DNA from: an uncultured Eubacteriales bacterium
Lineage (GTDB): Bacteria > Bacillota > Clostridia > Lachnospirales > Lachnospiraceae
Assembly (NCBI GenBank): GCA_900314565.1
Contig: OMVU01000016.1
Location: 54,802 to 118,801 of the forward strand
DNA: 64,000 nt
Direction: 5' to 3'
Shown: positions 44,188-55,321 of the stretch, in pieces
Layout of the letters: each line of letters starts with the position of its first letter
Position numbering within the stretch: position 1 is the stretch's first letter
The notes under the pieces: model-generated
Databases searched by the model: none
The model's input: only the letters and a program-made list of their open reading frames with translations
Told to the model about the DNA's origin: nothing
Made by a program: the position numbers and the translations under genes

Positions 44188-47100
44188 ATGTATCCTAACG
44201 GAACGGCATTTCGAAAGGCATTTCCAAGCCTGGATCTCTCTCCGGAGGTTCAGGCTTTGCTTGACAACTGTGTTGTGGATCGTCTGATCGTGAACGGGGA
44301 CAAGACCCGCATGCGGATCTATATCTCTTCGGAAAACTGGATCGGAAAGCGCTATATTTATGAGATCGGGGAGGCGATCTCCGAACAGATCTTTGAAAAT
44401 GTAAAGATGGAGATCAGCATCGTCGAGCGTTTCAAGCTGTCCTCCCAATACACGCCGAAGAACTTTTACCGCGTATACAGAAAGTCGATGCTGCTTGAGC
44501 TCAAGACGGTCAGCCCGCTTCTGTATCAGGCCTTTCTTCATACGACGCTCGAATTCGAGGGGGACCGTGAGATCAGGGCGAAGATATCGGACAGCCTGAT
44601 CGCGGGTCAAAGGCAGGATGAGCTCGTCGGATATCTTGACAAGGTCTTCTGTGAGCGTGCCGGTTTTTATAATGTGACAGTGACGGGTGAGCTCGTTGAA
44701 AATGAAAACAAGGACATCTACGCAGCGGATGATGAAAAGATCAGGAACCGGGTGAGGGCGGTCCTCAGAAGAAACGCCGGCAGGGCAGAGAAGAAGGAAG
44801 GGGAGGCGCAGAAGCAGCAGAAGCTTCCGAATGCATCGGAAAAGCGCTACCGCCAGCAGAAGGCTTTTGCGTCGAGCGATCCGAATGTGATCCTTGGAAA
44901 AGGGATCTGGGAGGATCCGATCCCGATCAGCGAACTCGGGGAGGATCCCCATGAGGTGATCGTCCGCGGGGAAGTTTTCGCTGTGGAGACAAGGGAGACG
45001 AGGAACGGCAAGATCATTTTCAACGTCTCGATGACAGATTACACGGACAGTATCCGGTTCAAGCTGTGGCTTCTGCCGGAAGAGCTGAAGGAATATACAG
45101 ATACTTTCAAAAAGGGCAGATGCTTTCTCGTCAAGGGCATGATGGATTTCGATCAGTTCGAGAAGGAAGTCATGATCAAGACGGTCTACTCGATCAAGAA
45201 GATCGATCCTTTCAAAACAGTCAGAGAGGATCACGCCGCGGCGAAGCGCGTTGAACTGCACTGTCATACGAAGATGTCCGATATGGACGCGGTCTCTTCC
45301 GCGAAGGATATCATCGGACAGGCGAAGCGGTGGGGAATGAAAGCCCTTGCGATCACAGATCACGGAGTAGTGCAGGCCTTTCCGGAAGCGCATCACGCGT
45401 CGGATGAGAAAGACCCTGATTTTAAGGTCATCTACGGCTGTGAAGGGTATCTTGTCGACGATATGGTCAGCATGGTATCCGGCAGAACAGACGTGAGCGT
45501 GGAGGAGCCGGTCGTCGTTGTCCAGATCGTGACGACCGGAATGAGCGCGGTGAGTCATGATATTATTGAACTGTCCGCGCAGAAGATCGTGAAGGGAAAC
45601 CTGACGGACAGTCTGACGACGCTCGTCAACCCGGGCAATCCGCTTCCCTTTTCCTTTACGAGGGAGACCGGAATCCGGGACGAGATGCTCCCCGGCATGC
45701 CGGATCTTCGCGGAGCCCTTGTCCGGTTCCTGGAATTTGCGGGCGATATGCCCATCGTCGCCTACGATGTGGATCTCGTTACGGAGTTCCTCAGGGAAGG
45801 GTGCAGAAAGACAGGTCTTTCCTGGGATTCCGACGGAAAAGGGGAACGGACACTCGTAGATATTTCGGGCTGTGTCCGATTCCTTCTTCCTCAGGTGAGC
45901 AGGAGTTCCCTCGAGAAGCTGTCGAAGGCCATGAAGGTACCTCTCGGCAATCCGAACAGGGCAGGCGATCAGGCCTATGCGATGGCGAAAGCCTTCCTGC
46001 TGCTTCTCGATGCCATGAAGAAGGAGCAGATCAGGACATACGGAGACCTCAATGCCCGCGGCATGATCTCTGAGGAGCGGATCAGGAATCTTCCGTATTA
46101 TCACATTATCATACTGGCGAAAAATGAGACGGGCCGCCGCAACCTCTATCGGCTCGTGTCTGAGTCGCACCTCAAATATTTTAAGAAGAGGCCCCGCATT
46201 CCGAGATCCCTTCTCATGGAGTGCAGGGAAGGTCTGATCCTTGGCTCTGCCTGTTCAGCAGGAGAGCTGTATTCGGCGATCCTTCTCGAGAAACCCGCGT
46301 CGGTGATCACAAAGATCGTGAATTTCTACGACTATCTGGAAGTGCAGCCGATCGGGAACAACGGTTATCTTGTCAGGGATGAGCTCCACGGGATCAAAAC
46401 GGACGATGACCTGAGGGAGATCAACAGGAAGATCGTGAAGCTCGCCGACGAATTCCATAAGATGTGCGTCGCCACGTGCGACGTTCATTTCCTGAATCCG
46501 GAGGACGCGATTTATCGAAGCATCATACAGTCCAGTCACGGTTACAAGGATGAAGGGCAGCCGCCGCTCTACCTGCATACGACGGAGGAGATGCTGGCCG
46601 AGTTCGCCTACCTCGGTGAGAAGAAGGCGTACGAGATCGTTGTTGAAAATACGAACCGTGTGGCGGATATGATCGAACAGATCTCTCCGATCCACCCGGA
46701 CAAGTGCCCGCCGGTCATCGAGAATTCGGATTCCGAGCTAATGGAAATGTGCTACGCGACGGCGCGCAGCATTTACGGGGACCCGATTCCGGAGCAGGTC
46801 AGGAAGCGGCTGGACAAGGAGCTCACATCCATCATCAATAACGGGTACGCGGTCATGTATATCATTGCCCAGCGTCTTGTGAAGAAATCCAGAGACGACG
46901 GATATCTCGTCGGCTCCCGTGGATCTGTCGGGTCGTCGCTGGTCGCGACCATGTCCAATATCACGGAGGTGAATCCTCTGCCGCCCCACTACCTGTGTCC
47001 GAACTGCCACTATGTGGACTTCGATTCGGAGCTCGTAAAGTCCTACGGGGGACGATGCGGGGCCGATATGCCGGATATGGTGTGTCCGCACTGCGGGACA

Positions 47101-48603
47101 CCGCTCTCCAAGATGGGATTTGACATCCCGTTCGAGACGTTCCTGGGGTTCAAGGGGGATAAGGAGCCCGATATCGACCTGAATTTTTCCGGTGATGAGC
47201 AGGGCATTGCCCAGCAGTATACGGAAGTCATCTTCGGGAAGGGACAGACCTTCAAGGCAGGTACGGTCGGCACGGTCGCCGAAAAGACAGCCTACGGCCT
47301 TGCGATGCATTATTTTGAGGATAAGGGTGTCTCCAAGAAGAACTGTGAGCTCGAGCGCCTTGCACAGGGCTGTGTCGGTGTCCGCAGAACGACCGGCCAG
47401 CATCCCGGCGGAGTCATCGTTCTCCCGAAGGGGATGGATATCAACTGGTTCACGCCGGTCCAGCACCCTGCAAATGATATGTCCTCCGACATCATCACGA
47501 CACATTTTGACTATCACTCGATCGACCGGAACCTTCTGAAGCTCGATATTCTGGGCCACGATGATCCCACGATCATCCGCATGCTCGAGGATCTCACCGG
47601 AACGGACCCGCTCAGCGTACCGCTGGACGACCCCGGCGTCCTGTCTCTCTTTTCGGGGCTTGACGCGCTCGGTCTCAGGCCCGGGGATCTCGGAAGCATC
47701 GATCTCGGAACGCTCGGCGTACCCGAGTTCGGGACGAACTTCGTCATGGGCATGCTCCGCGATACGAAGCCGAAGACGCTCTCCGAGCTGATCAGAATAT
47801 CCGGCCTGTCCCACGGCACGAACGTCTGGCTGGACAACGCCCAGTACTTTATCAAGCAGGGAGACTGTACGCTGTCCACCGCGATTTGCACACGTGACGA
47901 CATCATGCTGAACCTGATCGCCTGGGGCGTGGAGCCTGAGCATTCCTTCAAGATCATGGAGGCTGTGCGAAAGGGCAAAGGGTTGACGCCTGACCAGGAG
48001 AAGGAGATGCGCGAACACGGCGTGCCGGACTGGTACATCAAGTCCTGTAAGCGCATCAAATACATGTTTCCGAAGGCCCATGCGGCGGCCTACGTTATGA
48101 ACGCCTTCCGCATTGCCTACTATAAAATAAATTATCCTCTTGCCTATTACGCGGCGATGTTCTCGATCCGCGTCACGACCTTTGACTATGTCATTATGGC
48201 TCAGGGCAGAAAAGTGCTCGAGGCAAAGTACGAGGAGCTCTCAAAGAGCAGTGAGAGAAGCCCGAGGGAGGAGGAGATGATGAAGGACATGCTCATCGTC
48301 CGCGAGATGTACGCCCGCGGCTTTGAGTTCGCCCCCATCGATCTCTACAAATCGGGCGCGACTCGCTTCAGGATCCTGGACGGGAAGCTGCTGCCTTCCT
48401 TCAACTCTGTCGCCGGTCTGGGCGACAGCAACGCCGTGGCGATCGAGAAGGCGGCGAAGGAGGGACCCTTCCTCTCGAAGGATGATTTCAGGAACAGGAC
48501 GCATACGTCCCAGACGATCGTTGACCTGTTCGATGAGTACGGGATTCTCGGAGATATTCCCGAGACGAATCAGATCTCGCTGTTCGACCTGATGTCGGGC
48601 TGA
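44188..48603 (+). CDS. polC: PolC-type DNA polymerase III alpha subunit with catalytically dead exonuclease domain
   Basis: Replicative polymerase of low-GC Gram-positives, 1471 residues (B. subtilis PolC is about 1437). Order: N-terminal domain; OB fold (about 265-345); PHP domain (VELHCHTKMSDMDAV, AITDH, GCEGYLVDD, CDVHFLNP) interrupted by the DEDD exonuclease domain (about 440-610); zinc motif CPNC/CPHC (about 935-970); palm with PDIDLNFS; and C-terminal helix-hairpin region. In the exonuclease domain FDxETTG reads VQIVTTG (Q446, V448), HNxSFD reads YDVDLV (V531) and HHRAxYD reads PNRAGDQ (N590, Q595). All five catalytic positions are lost, so proofreading by this domain is not expected. 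Confidence 0.96.
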   Translation: MYPNGTAFRKAFPSLDLSPEVQALLDNCVVDRLIVNGDKTRMRIYISSENWIGKRYIYEIGEAISEQIFENVKMEISIVERFKLSSQYTPKNFYRVYRKSMLLELKTVSPLLYQAFLHTTLEFEGDREIRAKISDSLIAGQRQDELVGYLDKVFCERAGFYNVTVTGELVENENKDIYAADDEKIRNRVRAVLRRNAGRAEKKEGEAQKQQKLPNASEKRYRQQKAFASSDPNVILGKGIWEDPIPISELGEDPHEVIVRGEVFAVETRETRNGKIIFNVSMTDYTDSIRFKLWLLPEELKEYTDTFKKGRCFLVKGMMDFDQFEKEVMIKTVYSIKKIDPFKTVREDHAAAKRVELHCHTKMSDMDAVSSAKDIIGQAKRWGMKALAITDHGVVQAFPEAHHASDEKDPDFKVIYGCEGYLVDDMVSMVSGRTDVSVEEPVVVVQIVTTGMSAVSHDIIELSAQKIVKGNLTDSLTTLVNPGNPLPFSFTRETGIRDEMLPGMPDLRGALVRFLEFAGDMPIVAYDVDLVTEFLREGCRKTGLSWDSDGKGERTLVDISGCVRFLLPQVSRSSLEKLSKAMKVPLGNPNRAGDQAYAMAKAFLLLLDAMKKEQIRTYGDLNARGMISEERIRNLPYYHIIILAKNETGRRNLYRLVSESHLKYFKKRPRIPRSLLMECREGLILGSACSAGELYSAILLEKPASVITKIVNFYDYLEVQPIGNNGYLVRDELHGIKTDDDLREINRKIVKLADEFHKMCVATCDVHFLNPEDAIYRSIIQSSHGYKDEGQPPLYLHTTEEMLAEFAYLGEKKAYEIVVENTNRVADMIEQISPIHPDKCPPVIENSDSELMEMCYATARSIYGDPIPEQVRKRLDKELTSIINNGYAVMYIIAQRLVKKSRDDGYLVGSRGSVGSSLVATMSNITEVNPLPPHYLCPNCHYVDFDSELVKSYGGRCGADMPDMVCPHCGTPLSKMGFDIPFETFLGFKGDKEPDIDLNFSGDEQGIAQQYTEVIFGKGQTFKAGTVGTVAEKTAYGLAMHYFEDKGVSKKNCELERLAQGCVGVRRTTGQHPGGVIVLPKGMDINWFTPVQHPANDMSSDIITTHFDYHSIDRNLLKLDILGHDDPTIIRMLEDLTGTDPLSVPLDDPGVLSLFSGLDALGLRPGDLGSIDLGTLGVPEFGTNFVMGMLRDTKPKTLSELIRISGLSHGTNVWLDNAQYFIKQGDCTLSTAICTRDDIMLNLIAWGVEPEHSFKIMEAVRKGKGLTPDQEKEMREHGVPDWYIKSCKRIKYMFPKAHAAAYVMNAFRIAYYKINYPLAYYAAMFSIRVTTFDYVIMAQGRKVLEAKYEELSKSSERSPREEEMMKDMLIVREMYARGFEFAPIDLYKSGATRFRILDGKLLPSFNSVAGLGDSNAVAIEKAAKEGPFLSKDDFRNRTHTSQTIVDLFDEYGILGDIPETNQISLFDLMSG

Positions 48604-50243: not shown

Positions 50244-50490
50244 CAGGCTCTTGCGAAACTTTGTACGGAATTAAATTGTATGAACGATTCAAACAATCTG
50301 CACCAGCCTTAGAACTTCTTCATGAACGAGAGATGTGGAATGAGCAAAAACCGTGCTGTCTGAGCGCAGCGAGTTCACGATTTTTGCGAATGCTTTTCCA
50401 CATCTTGAGTGAATGTTAGAAGTTCTTGGCGCGGAAGCCGTTTGAATGTTCATACAATTTCAATGAAGTACAGCGTTTCGCAATTGCCTG
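50244..50490 (+). repeat. Nested palindromic repeat, family A, copy 4 (longest)
   Basis: A 247-bp copy with an enlarged centre: GCAAAAACCGTG and CACGATTTTTGC add another stem level within the GATGTGGAA/TTCCACATC arms. The right end is 30 bp before the TTG start at 50520. The 321-bp gap holds nothing else recognisable. Confidence 0.85.
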
Positions 50491-50519
50491 TCATAGTTGC
50501 AAACTTTGGAGGTCATGAC

Positions 50520-53500
50520 TTGATCAGAACACTCGGAGTAAAAGAAGAACAATTTGAGGAGATCCTCCGCGGTCTGACCGCTGCTCCGGACTTTATCGAC
50601 ATGGAGTGCGGGACGGGGAAGACCTGCAGCGGGGAGATCACGATACGGTGCTTTGAGGATTTTCGTCTGAAGGGCTACATAACGACCGATGAGGCAAGGA
50701 TCGTGCCGGAAAAGAGCCGCTTTGCGGGCGCTCCTTTCAGGCTTGTGTTCGGCGTCGACACCGCAGGGCTTCAGGATGGGGATGTCGTCACGGGCAACAT
50801 CTGTGTGGAGACGAACGGAGGGGCCGTGAGCATTCCGGTGCGTGTCAGCGTCCGGGATCTGATCGCCCAGTCCTCCTACGGAAGCATAGAAACACTCGAA
50901 GATTTCGGTGTCCTGGCGCAGGGAAATTATGAGGAGGCACTGCGTCTTTTCAGAAGTCCTGCCTTTCAGAAGATCCTGTCGGGAAAGGACCGCCGGTTCA
51001 GGGCTCTTTACCGGGGACTTTCACGAAATCCGGTCACTTACTCCAGAATGGAGGAGTTCCTGATCGCTTCCGGCATCAAGAGGCCGGTCGTCCTCACAGC
51101 GGATACTTCGGAGAGAAGGCTCTTCGATCTTCGGGAGTCGGTCCAGGAAAATGTCACGATCCACCGCAGCGGATGGGGCGGCATTGAGATCACCGCCGAG
51201 GCGGAGGGAGATTTTATCGAACTTCCGCGCAGAAAACTGTATGTGGATGACTTTGTCGGATCGATCTGTGAATTCGGGTTCGTGATCCGGAAAGAAAAGC
51301 TCGGGAACGGGATAAACTATGGCAAGGTCTTACTCGGTGCCTATAATTTCAATGCCGAGATCCCGGTCATGGCCAGTTCCCATGGAGAGCTCAGGGTGGA
51401 CATGACGATCATTTCCCAGAAGAACAGGGTCCGCCTCACATCCCTCTATCTCGATTATCTGATGGACCGCACAGACGTAAAGACGTTTTACTCGCAGACG
51501 AAGAAAACGCTCGCCCATATCCGGGAGACCGAGAGCTTACCGATGAGCTGCGAGCTCTACGAAGCGTACGTCGAGGAGCTCGGAGGGAACCGGACGGAAG
51601 CCAGAAGGATCCTTCAGGAGATCTCAAAGAGGAGCTTTAAGGAGGAGCCGCTGGAGAACCGGGCTGCATTTTTCTATGTCGGTTATATCACCGGCCTGCT
51701 CGACCCGGCAAAGGTCGATATCGCTCTTAAGATCAGGGAGATGCAGCAGAGAAAACAGGAGAGTCTCCTGCTCACCTGGATCCTGTTCCGGGTGGACCCG
51801 GATCTCCTGAGAAGCCCGTCGAAGAAAATGCGCTACATGGAGAAACTGTATGCATCTGGCTGCAGGAGTCCGATCCTCTACATGGAGGCGATCTATCTGA
51901 TCCGCCGCGACGGGAATAATCTGCGAAGGATGAATGCTTTTATGCGGAGCGTGCTCCTCTTCGCGGTCAACGCGGGGATGATCTCGGAAGACATGGCGCG
52001 CCGTGCAGCGCACCTCTCCGACAATGAAAAGAGCTTTACGGGCATCATGTACAGAGTACTCGCAGGCGCTTATGAATATCATCCGCTGCCGGATGTACTG
52101 GAGGCTGTCTGCAAGCTCCTCATGAAGTCGATGACGCTGGGACCGGAGTATTTCAAGTGGTTCCGCCTTGCCGTAGAGCACGAGATCCGGATCACAAGGA
52201 TCTATGAATTCTACATCGAGACAATGCCGGAGAATTATCAGAAGCCTCTGCCGAGATCTGTCCTTCGGTATTTCGCGATGAATAATATGCTTTCCGACAG
52301 AAAGAAAGCGCTTCTGTACGCGAATATTATAAAGAACCGTCAGGCAGACCGCCGTACTTACGCGATCTATGAGCCGACGATGCGTGATTTTGCCGAGCGG
52401 ATGCTCTCCGACGGCCGCCTGGATCCGCAGTATGCGATCCTCTATCAGAATTTCATCACGGATGTCGTGGATTCGGAGGACGGTGAACTGATTGCGCCGG
52501 TCCTCTTTACGAGCCGCGTATACACGGACGATCCCCGCATGCGGGAGGTCATCGTCGTCCATGAGGAGATGGAAGGGGAGGAGCGCTGGCCTGTCAGGGG
52601 CGGGGAAGCCTACATCCGCCGCTATACTGACCGTGCCGCCATCCTCTTTGCAGACTGGCTGGACAACCGGTATGCGAGCGGTATTGCGTTTTCGGAGGAG
52701 CCGCTTCTCTCGGAGAAAGGCCTCGCGGATGCCTGTATCCTGCAGCGCGTAAGATTTCCGGGGCTGATCCTGCACGCCTGTGTGGATGAAGAGGGAAATG
52801 TGCTGAGCGGCGAGGAAAAGAGCGAGCTTCTCGAGGCTGCTGTGGCATCGGACGCTTTTACGGAGGATTTCCGGCGGGAGATCAGGCGCACCCGCCTTGC
52901 GGAACTGATTTCCGGAGGAGACCGGGAAGCGCTTGAGCAGTTCCTTAACGGGCTTCCGGTCGAAGATCTAAGCGGCAGGGACCGGGTCATGGTGATTGGC
53001 GCCATGATCGGATGCGGACTCATGGGAAAAGCCTTTGAGGTGATCCGTACCCTTGGCGCGGAGGGGATCGACCCCAGACTGCTCGTCCGCCTTGTCGAAT
53101 ATGAAATTGCCGAACATGATTTTCTGGAAAATGAAGATATTCTCCTCCTCTGCGCCTATGTCTTCCGACAGGGCAAATTCGGCGAGCATATGCTCGAATA
53201 CCTTGCGGAATACTTCAGCGGGAGCCTGAGCGAGATGCTGCTCGTCAGGGAATCCGCCGCCGATTTCTTCGTCGATACGAAGGGGATTGAGGAGAGGATC
53301 CTCAGCAGGGCTACCTTTACGGGAAGACTGCTGCCCGAAAAATCTGACATTCTGGCAAATTACAGGGAACACGGCGGGAACCGGAAGGTCGTGCGGGGAT
53401 ATCTCCTCATGGAATCCGACCGGTGCTTCAGAGCCAGGACAAAGATCAGTGATTATTCGGCTGCATTTATTGAGAAGACCATAAGGACCGGCGAGAAGAC

Positions 53501-54059
53501 GGATCTCATCATGAAGCTTGCCCTTCTCCTCTGTTATTCGAAGAAGGAGAAGCTCGGCATGCGGGAGGAGGAGATCGCAGAATCGCTGCTTGCAGAATGC
53601 GCTTCGAAGAATCTGCGGTTTGCATTTTTCAGAGATCTTCCCGGACGGCTGACCTCGCTTTATGAAATCGAGGACCGGGTCTTCATCGAGCATGATGCGG
53701 ATCCGAATGCACTGGTGACTCTGTACTACAGGATGTCCATGGATGATGAATCGTTCCGGTCAACACCGATGACGCAGATCTATAAAGGCATCTTCTCGAG
53801 AGAATTTGTTCTGTTTTACGGGGAGAGCATGGAATATTACATTGTGACGGAGGAGGACGGTGCGGAGACACGTACGGAAGTGCGCGTCACCTCTGCCCGT
53901 TCGGTCGATATGCACGGCCGCAGCCGGTATCAGCTGATCAATCAGATGCTCGCTGCAAGGGAGGCCGGCAATTTGGATGTGCTCAGAGAAAAGATCCGGG
54001 AGTACAGGCGGGCTGAACAGGTCGTCGATGCGGTCTTTGAGCTGGAGGAAGAATTTTGA
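50520..54059 (+). CDS. Large solenoid-like protein of unknown function (DUF5717-like)
   Basis: A 1179-residue, apparently soluble protein. Two beta-sandwich-like segments (about 20-110 and 205-300) flank a short helical part. A very long helical region (about 310-1050), probably an alpha-solenoid, follows, and the C-terminus (about 1060-1179) mixes strands and a charged helix. No signal peptide or membrane helix is seen. The start is TTG 50520 with GGAGG 6 bases upstream; an ATG at 50516 is out of frame. The stop overlaps the next start (TTGA), tying it to an Hsp70-like partner. From memory it matches family DUF5717 of Lachnospiraceae; function is unknown. Confidence 0.75.
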   Translation: MIRTLGVKEEQFEEILRGLTAAPDFIDMECGTGKTCSGEITIRCFEDFRLKGYITTDEARIVPEKSRFAGAPFRLVFGVDTAGLQDGDVVTGNICVETNGGAVSIPVRVSVRDLIAQSSYGSIETLEDFGVLAQGNYEEALRLFRSPAFQKILSGKDRRFRALYRGLSRNPVTYSRMEEFLIASGIKRPVVLTADTSERRLFDLRESVQENVTIHRSGWGGIEITAEAEGDFIELPRRKLYVDDFVGSICEFGFVIRKEKLGNGINYGKVLLGAYNFNAEIPVMASSHGELRVDMTIISQKNRVRLTSLYLDYLMDRTDVKTFYSQTKKTLAHIRETESLPMSCELYEAYVEELGGNRTEARRILQEISKRSFKEEPLENRAAFFYVGYITGLLDPAKVDIALKIREMQQRKQESLLLTWILFRVDPDLLRSPSKKMRYMEKLYASGCRSPILYMEAIYLIRRDGNNLRRMNAFMRSVLLFAVNAGMISEDMARRAAHLSDNEKSFTGIMYRVLAGAYEYHPLPDVLEAVCKLLMKSMTLGPEYFKWFRLAVEHEIRITRIYEFYIETMPENYQKPLPRSVLRYFAMNNMLSDRKKALLYANIIKNRQADRRTYAIYEPTMRDFAERMLSDGRLDPQYAILYQNFITDVVDSEDGELIAPVLFTSRVYTDDPRMREVIVVHEEMEGEERWPVRGGEAYIRRYTDRAAILFADWLDNRYASGIAFSEEPLLSEKGLADACILQRVRFPGLILHACVDEEGNVLSGEEKSELLEAAVASDAFTEDFRREIRRTRLAELISGGDREALEQFLNGLPVEDLSGRDRVMVIGAMIGCGLMGKAFEVIRTLGAEGIDPRLLVRLVEYEIAEHDFLENEDILLLCAYVFRQGKFGEHMLEYLAEYFSGSLSEMLLVRESAADFFVDTKGIEERILSRATFTGRLLPEKSDILANYREHGGNRKVVRGYLLMESDRCFRARTKISDYSAAFIEKTIRTGEKTDLIMKLALLLCYSKKEKLGMREEEIAESLLAECASKNLRFAFFRDLPGRLTSLYEIEDRVFIEHDADPNALVTLYYRMSMDDESFRSTPMTQIYKGIFSREFVLFYGESMEYYIVTEEDGAETRTEVRVTSARSVDMHGRSRYQLINQMLAAREAGNLDVLREKIREYRRAEQVVDAVFELEEEF

Positions 54060-55321
54060 ACGAGGTTCGAGAGTTACTGATAGGGTTTGAGTTCGGCAGG
54101 GAGACGTCTGTGATCTGCTATTATGACAGGAAGTCTGAGGAGCCGGTCTGTGTCACGACCAAGGTGGGAACGAATCTGTTCGATTTCCCGTCGATCCTTG
54201 CCTATGTTCCTTCAAAAAATGAATGGCATTTCGGACTTGAGGCCGAGTATTTCGGAAAACTGCCGGGCGGCATTATGGTCTCTTCCGTATATGATCTGGC
54301 TTTTCGCGGAGGATCGATCCGCGTTGCTGACCGTGAGATGGAATCCTTTGAGCTTCTGCGCGTGTTCTTTCTGGAATCTCTGAAACTTCTGGGGATCCGG
54401 AATGTCGTCCAGTCGATCTCCAAGATCGTGGTCACGACGCGGGAGATCTCAGCTCCGCTCGTTTTTGCGGTACGAAGGGCTCTGTCCTCGATCGGTCTCA
54501 GGGTCGGGCAGTATTCGATCCAGGATCTCAGAGAGAGCTTTTATTATTACACGTACAGCCAGCGTCCGGATCTGTGGACACGCAGCGTCGTGCTCTTCAC
54601 CTTTGAGAAGAGACTGCTCACTGCATTTGTACTCTCCGAGAAAAAGGACACGAATCCGATCGAGGTCGGTGTACAGACGTGCGGGAGCGTCCGGATCCCG
54701 GATGGGGAGGAGGAGAAGAACCGGGCGCTTCTTGACTGCGCGGCGTCCGCCATGAAGGGAAGCGCCTTTTCGGGTGTGCTCATGACAGGGGACTCCTTTG
54801 ACCCGGAGATCTACAAGCCCGCCTGCGATGACCTGAGCCGTGAAAGGAACCGCATTTATTTTGAGGACGATCTCTTTGTCAAAGGCGCGTGCTATGCGGC
54901 TTATGAACAGGCAGAAAGACATGCCTTCCGCGGGCGGGTCTATATGAGTGAGAGCAGGGTCCGGATGAATGTCGGGATGGATATGATCGTCGGCATGAAT
55001 ACGGTCGCGGTCCCCCTTATCCGCGCGGGATCGAGCTGGTTCGAGGCTTCCGAGTCCTGCGAGTTCATTCTGGATGACCGGGATTACCTGGTGTTTACGC
55101 TGCAGGAGATGGGGAGCTCGGGTCGAAGAAATTTCCGGATGGATCTTCCGGAACTCCCGAAACGGCCCAACCGGACTACAAGGATCCGGCTGACTCTTGA
55201 ATGTCTCTCCCCCGAGGTCTGTGAGATCCGGGCGGAGGATCTCGGATTCGGTGATTTTTATCCCGCGACCCACAGGATCTGGAAGGGGAACGTTTCACTT
55301 TTGCCGGAAAGGGCAGACTGA
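54056..55321 (+). CDS. Degenerate Hsp70/actin-like protein of unknown function (DUF5716-like)
   Basis: A 421-residue protein with the order of an actin/Hsp70 fold: IGFEFGRETSVICYY (phosphate-1-like), FDFPSILAYV, KIVVTTREISAPLVFAVRRALSSIGL (like the VPAxFxxxQRxAxxxAxxxAG segment), a second hairpin SVVLFTFEKRLLTAFVL where DLGGGT is expected, GVLMTGDSFDPEIY (adenosine-like) and VKGACYAAYEQA. The phosphate-2 glycines are missing, so ATP turnover is doubtful. The start is TTG 54056, overlapping the preceding stop, with GGAGG upstream. It probably forms a complex with the large solenoid and the TPR protein. Confidence 0.72.
   Translation: MNEVRELLIGFEFGRETSVICYYDRKSEEPVCVTTKVGTNLFDFPSILAYVPSKNEWHFGLEAEYFGKLPGGIMVSSVYDLAFRGGSIRVADREMESFELLRVFFLESLKLLGIRNVVQSISKIVVTTREISAPLVFAVRRALSSIGLRVGQYSIQDLRESFYYYTYSQRPDLWTRSVVLFTFEKRLLTAFVLSEKKDTNPIEVGVQTCGSVRIPDGEEEKNRALLDCAASAMKGSAFSGVLMTGDSFDPEIYKPACDDLSRERNRIYFEDDLFVKGACYAAYEQAERHAFRGRVYMSESRVRMNVGMDMIVGMNTVAVPLIRAGSSWFEASESCEFILDDRDYLVFTLQEMGSSGRRNFRMDLPELPKRPNRTTRIRLTLECLSPEVCEIRAEDLGFGDFYPATHRIWKGNVSLLPERAD

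Follow-up and report, generated by a model that had tools for sequence, protein, structure and literature searches.

A genus of Lachnospiraceae whose PolC retains an exonuclease domain without catalytic residues beside a complete PHP metal site

The polC gene and its exonuclease domain

The window, by which we mean the whole 64,000-nucleotide stretch of DNA analysed here, contains a polC gene that is open throughout, with no internal stop (Table 1). Two PolC models match almost the whole protein (NF001688 with 1604.8 bits against a cut-off of 873, and TIGR01405 with 1465.1 bits against 1043.45). This was the single PolC found in the source genome, which also has one separate DnaE. An alignment with the E. 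faecium PolC and the structural match described below place the exonuclease domain inside the PHP domain, as in the PolC type. Besides PDIDLNF, the sequence LDILGHDDP is intact at residue 1119, and we take these two to be the active-site (catalytic) motifs of the polymerase. Among 30 long sequences of the genus, 29 keep PDIDLNF, all 30 keep LDILGHDDP and 27 keep the Q-x-x-[LI]-F end motif. Two adjoining proteins of unknown function, DUF5717 (1216 aa) and DUF5716 (421 aa), are encoded at 50409-55321, downstream of both polC and an aminotransferase.

Table 1. Coordinates of polC and of its domains, motifs and altered exonuclease positions in the window
Feature	Position	Strand	Basis
polC, PolC-type DNA polymerase III alpha subunit, 1471 aa	44188..48603	+	ORF, profile matches
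PHP domain part 1; H358, H360, D367, H392, E419 all kept	45223..45477	+	
DEDDh (DnaQ-like) exonuclease insertion, residues ~440-622; without the catalytic residues, predicted fold intact	45505..46053	+	
Exo I: Q446 and V448 replace Asp and Glu	45523..45531	+	genus and E. faecium PolC alignments
Exo II: V531 replaces Asp	45778..45780	+	genus and E. faecium PolC alignments
Exo III: N590 replaces His, Q595 replaces Asp	45955..45972	+	genus and E. faecium PolC alignments
PHP domain part 2; H639, C689, D765, H767 all kept	46093..46677	+	
Polymerase motif PDIDLNF, residues 994-1000, intact	47167..47187	+	
C-terminal clamp-binding-type motif QISLF, residues 1462-1466, intact	48571..48585	+	motif per the available portion of PMC3919608

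The D-x-E, D and H-x4-D residues of an active DEDDh exonuclease are absent from the window PolC, which reads Q, V, V, N and Q at these positions. In the alignment with the solved E. faecium PolC, the catalytic pair (Ala in that exonuclease-inactivated chain) is matched by Q446 and V448, the Asp of Exo II by V531, and the His and Asp of Exo III by N590 and Q595, respectively. D431 and E433 are the catalytic residues of the E. faecium exonuclease domain according to PMC12592400; this and the other papers are cited here for the portions of their text available to us. The genus alignment, made of the window and 33 other sequences, puts all five positions in identical columns. The Pfam exonuclease model still matches the window domain (30.4 bits, cut-off 24). 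Thus, both alignments bear out the original prediction that all five DEDDh residues are lost from a full-length domain in an intact frame. We also considered whether the residues might be displaced nearby; D594, which lies beside Q595, is not conserved in relatives, many of which read RAFPR or RAYPR here, and displacement was therefore rejected.

Loss of the exonuclease site in the genus and the family

We scored 34 distinct sequences of the genus, the window included, which are complete at all the scored positions and come from part of the genus genomes searched; partial fragments, such as L032, L063 and L069, were left out. None of the five DEDDh residues is kept in 28 of these sequences and one is kept in the other 6, so that the alignment of related PolC, which the original prediction had proposed as a check, extends the loss to the whole genus as scored. 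As all 34 sequences keep at most one of the five residues, a frameshift or a sequencing or assembly artefact is ruled out. The replacing residues vary: position 446 is Q in 17 sequences, S in 11, A in 3, D in 2 and T in 1, and position 595 is R in 30, Q in 3 and L in 1. The contigs of the genus are named as Lachnospiraceae, Clostridiales or Clostridia records and are mostly MAGs, some of them from goat or sheep ileum.

A few relatives showed peculiarities of their own. One (L038, ~1335-2159) has a repetitive insertion of ~50 residues inside the dead exonuclease domain with the frame open, and in another (L063) polC is split across two frames, with a break close to where the exonuclease domain begins. 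A further genus member has a second PolC-like frame of 800 aa (G020:C230:8761-11130), with a good exonuclease match of 96.6 bits.

Outside the family, we searched 24 genomes from other families of the order and fetched and read the PolC of 20; all 20 keep the five exonuclease residues. Judged from these sequences, the DEDDh-intact PolC is the ancestral state. Within the family, a canonical Exo III box is present somewhere in 351 of 397 genomes (334 genera), only part of which were read, and in which the box may lie outside PolC. The 46 genomes without the box comprise 24 in which the exonuclease is lost (21 genera; one of them, G414, was scored from a broken match pattern alone, its residues not being read), 11 with a variant box and a complete site, and 11 in which the region is missing. 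The domain is deleted, with the PHP halves joined by a short linker, in 14 of the 21 exo-lost genera, and it is retained in a dead form in the other 7 (g1, g64, g77, g122, g183, g244 and g358). Altogether, 90 of the 110 family genomes scored outside the genus keep all five residues, in a sample that is enriched for losses.

The losses are scattered over a 69-taxon tree built from the polymerase part of PolC. We counted 11 events on the uncollapsed tree, 8 after collapsing branches with support below 0.9 and 7 after collapsing those below 0.95, all on the assumption that the exonuclease is not regained. Two genera are mixed: g112 contains a deleted (G445) and an intact (G147) domain, and g77 a dead (G112) and an intact (G424) one. 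A single ancestral loss shared by the family is rejected because of this scatter and of the genus-mates with an intact domain, and we conclude that the exonuclease was lost separately at least 7-8 times in the family.

Eight family rows were set aside because part of the PHP or exonuclease region is off the contig or outside the frame. Among them is G157, where a natural split of PolC was considered and rejected, as undetermined bases lie at the junction; its second PHP part has all four ligands and the first part shows the other five.

Fold, constraint and the PHP metal site

The AlphaFold2 model of the exonuclease domain has a pLDDT of 88.8 and a pTM of 0.86. In this model the RNase H-like exonuclease fold is kept, and the best structural matches are the exonuclease domains of PolC, DinG, DnaQ and epsilon, led by the E. 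faecium PolC (9qpc) with an rmsd of 1.8 A. The model of the PHP and exonuclease domains together is weaker (pLDDT 77.9), with values of 39 to 78 in 10-residue blocks over the first 90 residues, in the first PHP part.

We calculated dN/dS for five unsaturated pairs of genus sequences; the pairs L066/L067 and L046/L060 were not used because their exonuclease dS exceeded 1.2. The dead domain gave values of 0.14, 0.17, 0.08, 0.06 and 0.08, compared with 0.01-0.04 for the second PHP part and the polymerase part and 0.03-0.10 for the N-terminal domain in the same pairs. The former range excludes the polymerase value of L050, which we judged to be distorted since its match ends at residue 1153. The dead exonuclease domain is thus under purifying selection. 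As its dN/dS is little above that of the N-terminal domain, this constraint alone does not show a scaffold role. Mean pairwise identity in the genus is 48 percent for the exonuclease domain versus 76 for the polymerase part; the corresponding means for 26 exo-intact PolC are 58 versus 72. Therefore, the dead domain is more relaxed than the exonuclease domain of the exo-intact genera. Of its 14 invariant columns, 4 are charged (E461, D498, K583 and R591) and the remaining 10 hold Gly, Pro or a hydrophobic residue; E461 and D498 lie in the stretches IIE and GIxD, common to intact PolC.

The window PolC has the full set of nine PHP metal ligands (Table 1), in agreement with the nine-ligand PHP-exonuclease pattern HHDHEH[C/H]DH, and HHDHEHCDH is kept in 34 of the 34 genus rows. 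Outside the genus, the 20 exo-lost family genomes (19 genera) have the nine ligands in every case. Of the 90 exo-intact ones, 83 have all nine and 7 have a broken PHP, a rate that is inflated because this sample over-represents low-scoring PolC. The PHP is also broken in 1 of the 20 outgroup PolC, with the exonuclease intact. The eight PHP-broken PolC (L103, L104, L105, L107/L186, L119, L123 and L198 from the family, L087 from the outgroup) have lost one or more ligands and all keep DEDHD, the reverse of the state in the window. In none of the genus, the 110 family and the 20 outgroup PolC scored are the two nuclease sites lost together. However, this mutual exclusion is not significant when the genus is counted once (Fisher P=0.34), and we rejected it as a proof.

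The original prediction had pointed to an Asp in the sequence CDVHF. This residue, D765, was read correctly, and E. faecium PolC has Asn at the matching position (GNVHY). An Asp is found there in 19 of the 20 outgroup PolC read; it is the usual state in the order, and hence was not gained in compensation for the lost exonuclease. D765 occupies the position of D226 of M. tuberculosis DnaE1, in which nine PHP residues bind three zinc ions, the site proofreads and the change D226N abolishes exonuclease activity (PMC5636811, available portion). The available text of PMC3919608 describes a strong conservation of the nine PHP positions among PolC.

Proofreading in exo-lost PolC and comparison with known systems

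In three terminal sister pairs the branches of the exo-lost member are longer, by 2.0-3.0x for PolC, 1.5-2.0x for DnaE and 1.5-2.3x for RpoB, the RpoB of one partner (G424) being a fragment of 530 aa. The DnaE and RpoB sequences of the sister pairs are L241-L280. Over seven contrasts, on a tree with some weak nodes (43, 47 and 59), the branch ratios were 1.95, 1.48, 2.34, 0.97, 1.43, 1.25 and 0.80 for RpoB and 1.47, 1.64, 1.95, 1.02, 1.21, 1.26 and 0.76 for DnaE. For the polymerase part of PolC the longer branch was on the exo-lost side in all seven, one being nearly equal (1.01). We also considered a genome-wide mutator. At first, 12 of 12 gene-by-pair ratios exceeded 1, but one pair turned out not to be true sisters; with proper ancestors this non-sister contrast was about 1 and three added contrasts were mixed, and the mutator is kept only as a suggestion. 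The longer exo-lost branches suggest either a reduced fidelity or a lineage effect, neither of which is proven.

A search of the source genome for a separate DnaQ, another check named in the original prediction, did not yield a convincing replacement. Its stand-alone DEDDh matches are a KapD-like protein, whose best model is KapD (61.7 bits, below that model's cut-off of 169), and a DnaQ-like gene in two overlapping frames (G000:C66:7130-7601; L034/L035), which is either a broken gene or an assembly error. In the genus, we sorted the matches by eye according to their extent and found the KapD-like stand-alone kind in ~33 of 41 genomes and the DnaQ/PolC-type kind in ~12 of 41, counting the split copy and the 800-aa frame of G020. 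A genus-wide stand-alone DnaQ or epsilon was not detected in the 41 genomes with one Pfam model, a search of limited sensitivity that can miss divergent homologs and missed the window's own degenerate domain. From these counts no stand-alone epsilon appears to be general, and within the limits of the one-model search epsilon as a general replacement is unsupported.

We consider it probable that the window encodes a working, clamp-tethered replicative PolC in which the DEDDh domain is a pseudo-exonuclease scaffold and the PHP is the proofreader. The inserted exonuclease would have turned into a pseudo-exonuclease while the frame, the polymerase motifs, the predicted fold and purifying selection persisted. 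The trinuclear zinc site of the PHP would remove mismatched 3' ends, like its counterpart in M. tuberculosis DnaE1, and the pseudo-exonuclease may persist as a scaffold in the loop beside this site; in G. kaustophilus PolC the DEDD domain is inserted in a loop lining the PHP metal site (PMC5636811, available portion). As both nucleases were present in the ancestral clostridial PolC, the DEDDh nuclease would be dispensable; its losses in the family, at least seven or eight in number, more often took the form of a deletion than of a dead domain left in place. Several observations count against this reading. G. kaustophilus PolC, with one PHP ligand changed, has no PHP exonuclease activity (PMC5636811, available portion). 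The exclusion of the two losses is not significant, the first PHP part is poorly predicted in the combined model, and the constraint on the dead domain is little different from that on the N-terminal domain. Some exo-lost lineages also evolve more rapidly in DnaE and RpoB, which a drop in fidelity would lead one to expect, although the contrasts are mixed. We hold more tentatively, at a little under an even chance, the generalization that across the Lachnospiraceae the PolC PHP is the replicative proofreader, with the DEDDh site redundant, lost at least 7-8 times, sometimes kept as a constrained scaffold and never lost together with the PHP in our sample, some losses perhaps raising the genome-wide substitution rate.

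The claim in the original prediction that proofreading must come from the PHP domain or from a separate DnaQ-like protein was too strong. Its PHP half gains support from the nine ligands in every scorable exo-lost PolC and its epsilon half is unsupported by the one-model search; a demotion of PolC relative to DnaE1 and a tolerated lower fidelity remain as alternatives to any replacement. A demoted PolC would need no proofreader, if DnaE1 with its own intact PHP copied most of the chromosome. The DnaE1 of the source genome does have nine PHP ligands, read off its sequence, the idea was raised for PolC+DnaE1 species in PMC3919608, which also notes that exonuclease-less PolC is restricted to clostridial genomes, and the longer polymerase branches in the seven contrasts fit as well. 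Yet the polymerase and clamp motifs are kept, purifying selection on the polymerase part is strong, and demotion alone would not account for the nine PHP ligands of every exo-lost PolC scored; we regard it as unlikely. Less probable still is that lower replication fidelity is simply tolerated and buffered by mismatch repair. MutS was present in 22 of 22 genomes tested and the exo-lost members of the three sister pairs are longer-branched in RpoB and DnaE, but the seven RpoB contrasts are neither universal nor free of lineage effects, and the loss persists genus-wide, while in B. subtilis selection acts against the strongest hypermutators (PMC11890065, available portion).

We give equally little credence to a stand-alone DnaQ-like exonuclease that proofreads for PolC in trans. 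Exonuclease-family matches in 37 of 41 genus genomes, many of them stand-alone, would favor it, though this count includes PolC's own domain, the widespread kind resembles the KapD-like protein by match extent, and the DnaQ/PolC-type kind is confined to the minority given above. Finally, a DEDDh domain still active through other residues is hardly conceivable: the predicted RNase H-like fold is kept, but most of the invariant columns are Gly, Pro or hydrophobic, the charged E461 and D498 belong to stretches that intact PolC share, and the genus varies at 446 (Q, S, A, D or T) and 595 (R, Q or L).

PolC is described as proofreading through its built-in DEDDh exonuclease, and a genus with a dead DEDDh site and a complete PHP is a natural experiment, in which a single purified enzyme and one mutant of it would suffice to decide whether the PHP proofreads in PolC. 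In the gut and rumen bacteria of this group, the PHP site of the same PolC is likely to be the replacement nuclease. The findings also suggest that loss of the PolC exonuclease can pass through a dead-but-retained state. In our searches of open-access PMC we found no earlier report of a retained, catalytically dead PolC exonuclease. Deletions have been known since 2013, when Exo-less PolC was put at 6 percent of PolC, all but one in Clostridia and Negativicutes, and no PolC+DnaE1 replication system had yet been characterised experimentally (PMC3919608, available portion). What is new is a predicted-folded, constrained PolC exonuclease without catalytic residues, genus-wide as far as read. It contradicts the statement, in the accessible part of a 2026 survey, that in Pol III alpha the PHP and not the DnaQ domain is inactivated (PMC12926913).

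Compared with the canonical PolC of Bacilli (G. kaustophilus; E. faecium 9QPC/9QRN), the domain order, the PHP with an inserted DEDDh and the polymerase core are alike. In those enzymes, however, the PHP is the changed site (Asn in E. faecium, one ligand in G. kaustophilus) and the DEDDh is the natural proofreader, and the window has the reverse. The PolC without Exo insertion of Clostridia and Negativicutes (PMC3919608, available portion) have likewise lost DEDDh function in PolC+DnaE1 bacteria; there the domain is absent, as in 14 other genera of the family, whereas the window domain is full length, retained, predicted folded and constrained, with its catalytic residues gone. The Pol I orthologs and PolA2, as far as described in the available text of PMC12926913, resemble the window in retaining a DnaQ-like domain with a disrupted active site, but are A-family polymerases. 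The M. tuberculosis DnaE1 PHP-exonuclease and the window PolC have the nine zinc ligands in common, among them the Asp at which a change to Asn removes exonuclease activity in the former (PMC5636811, available portion); the former is a DnaE with measured PHP activity, and the latter a PolC known from its sequence.
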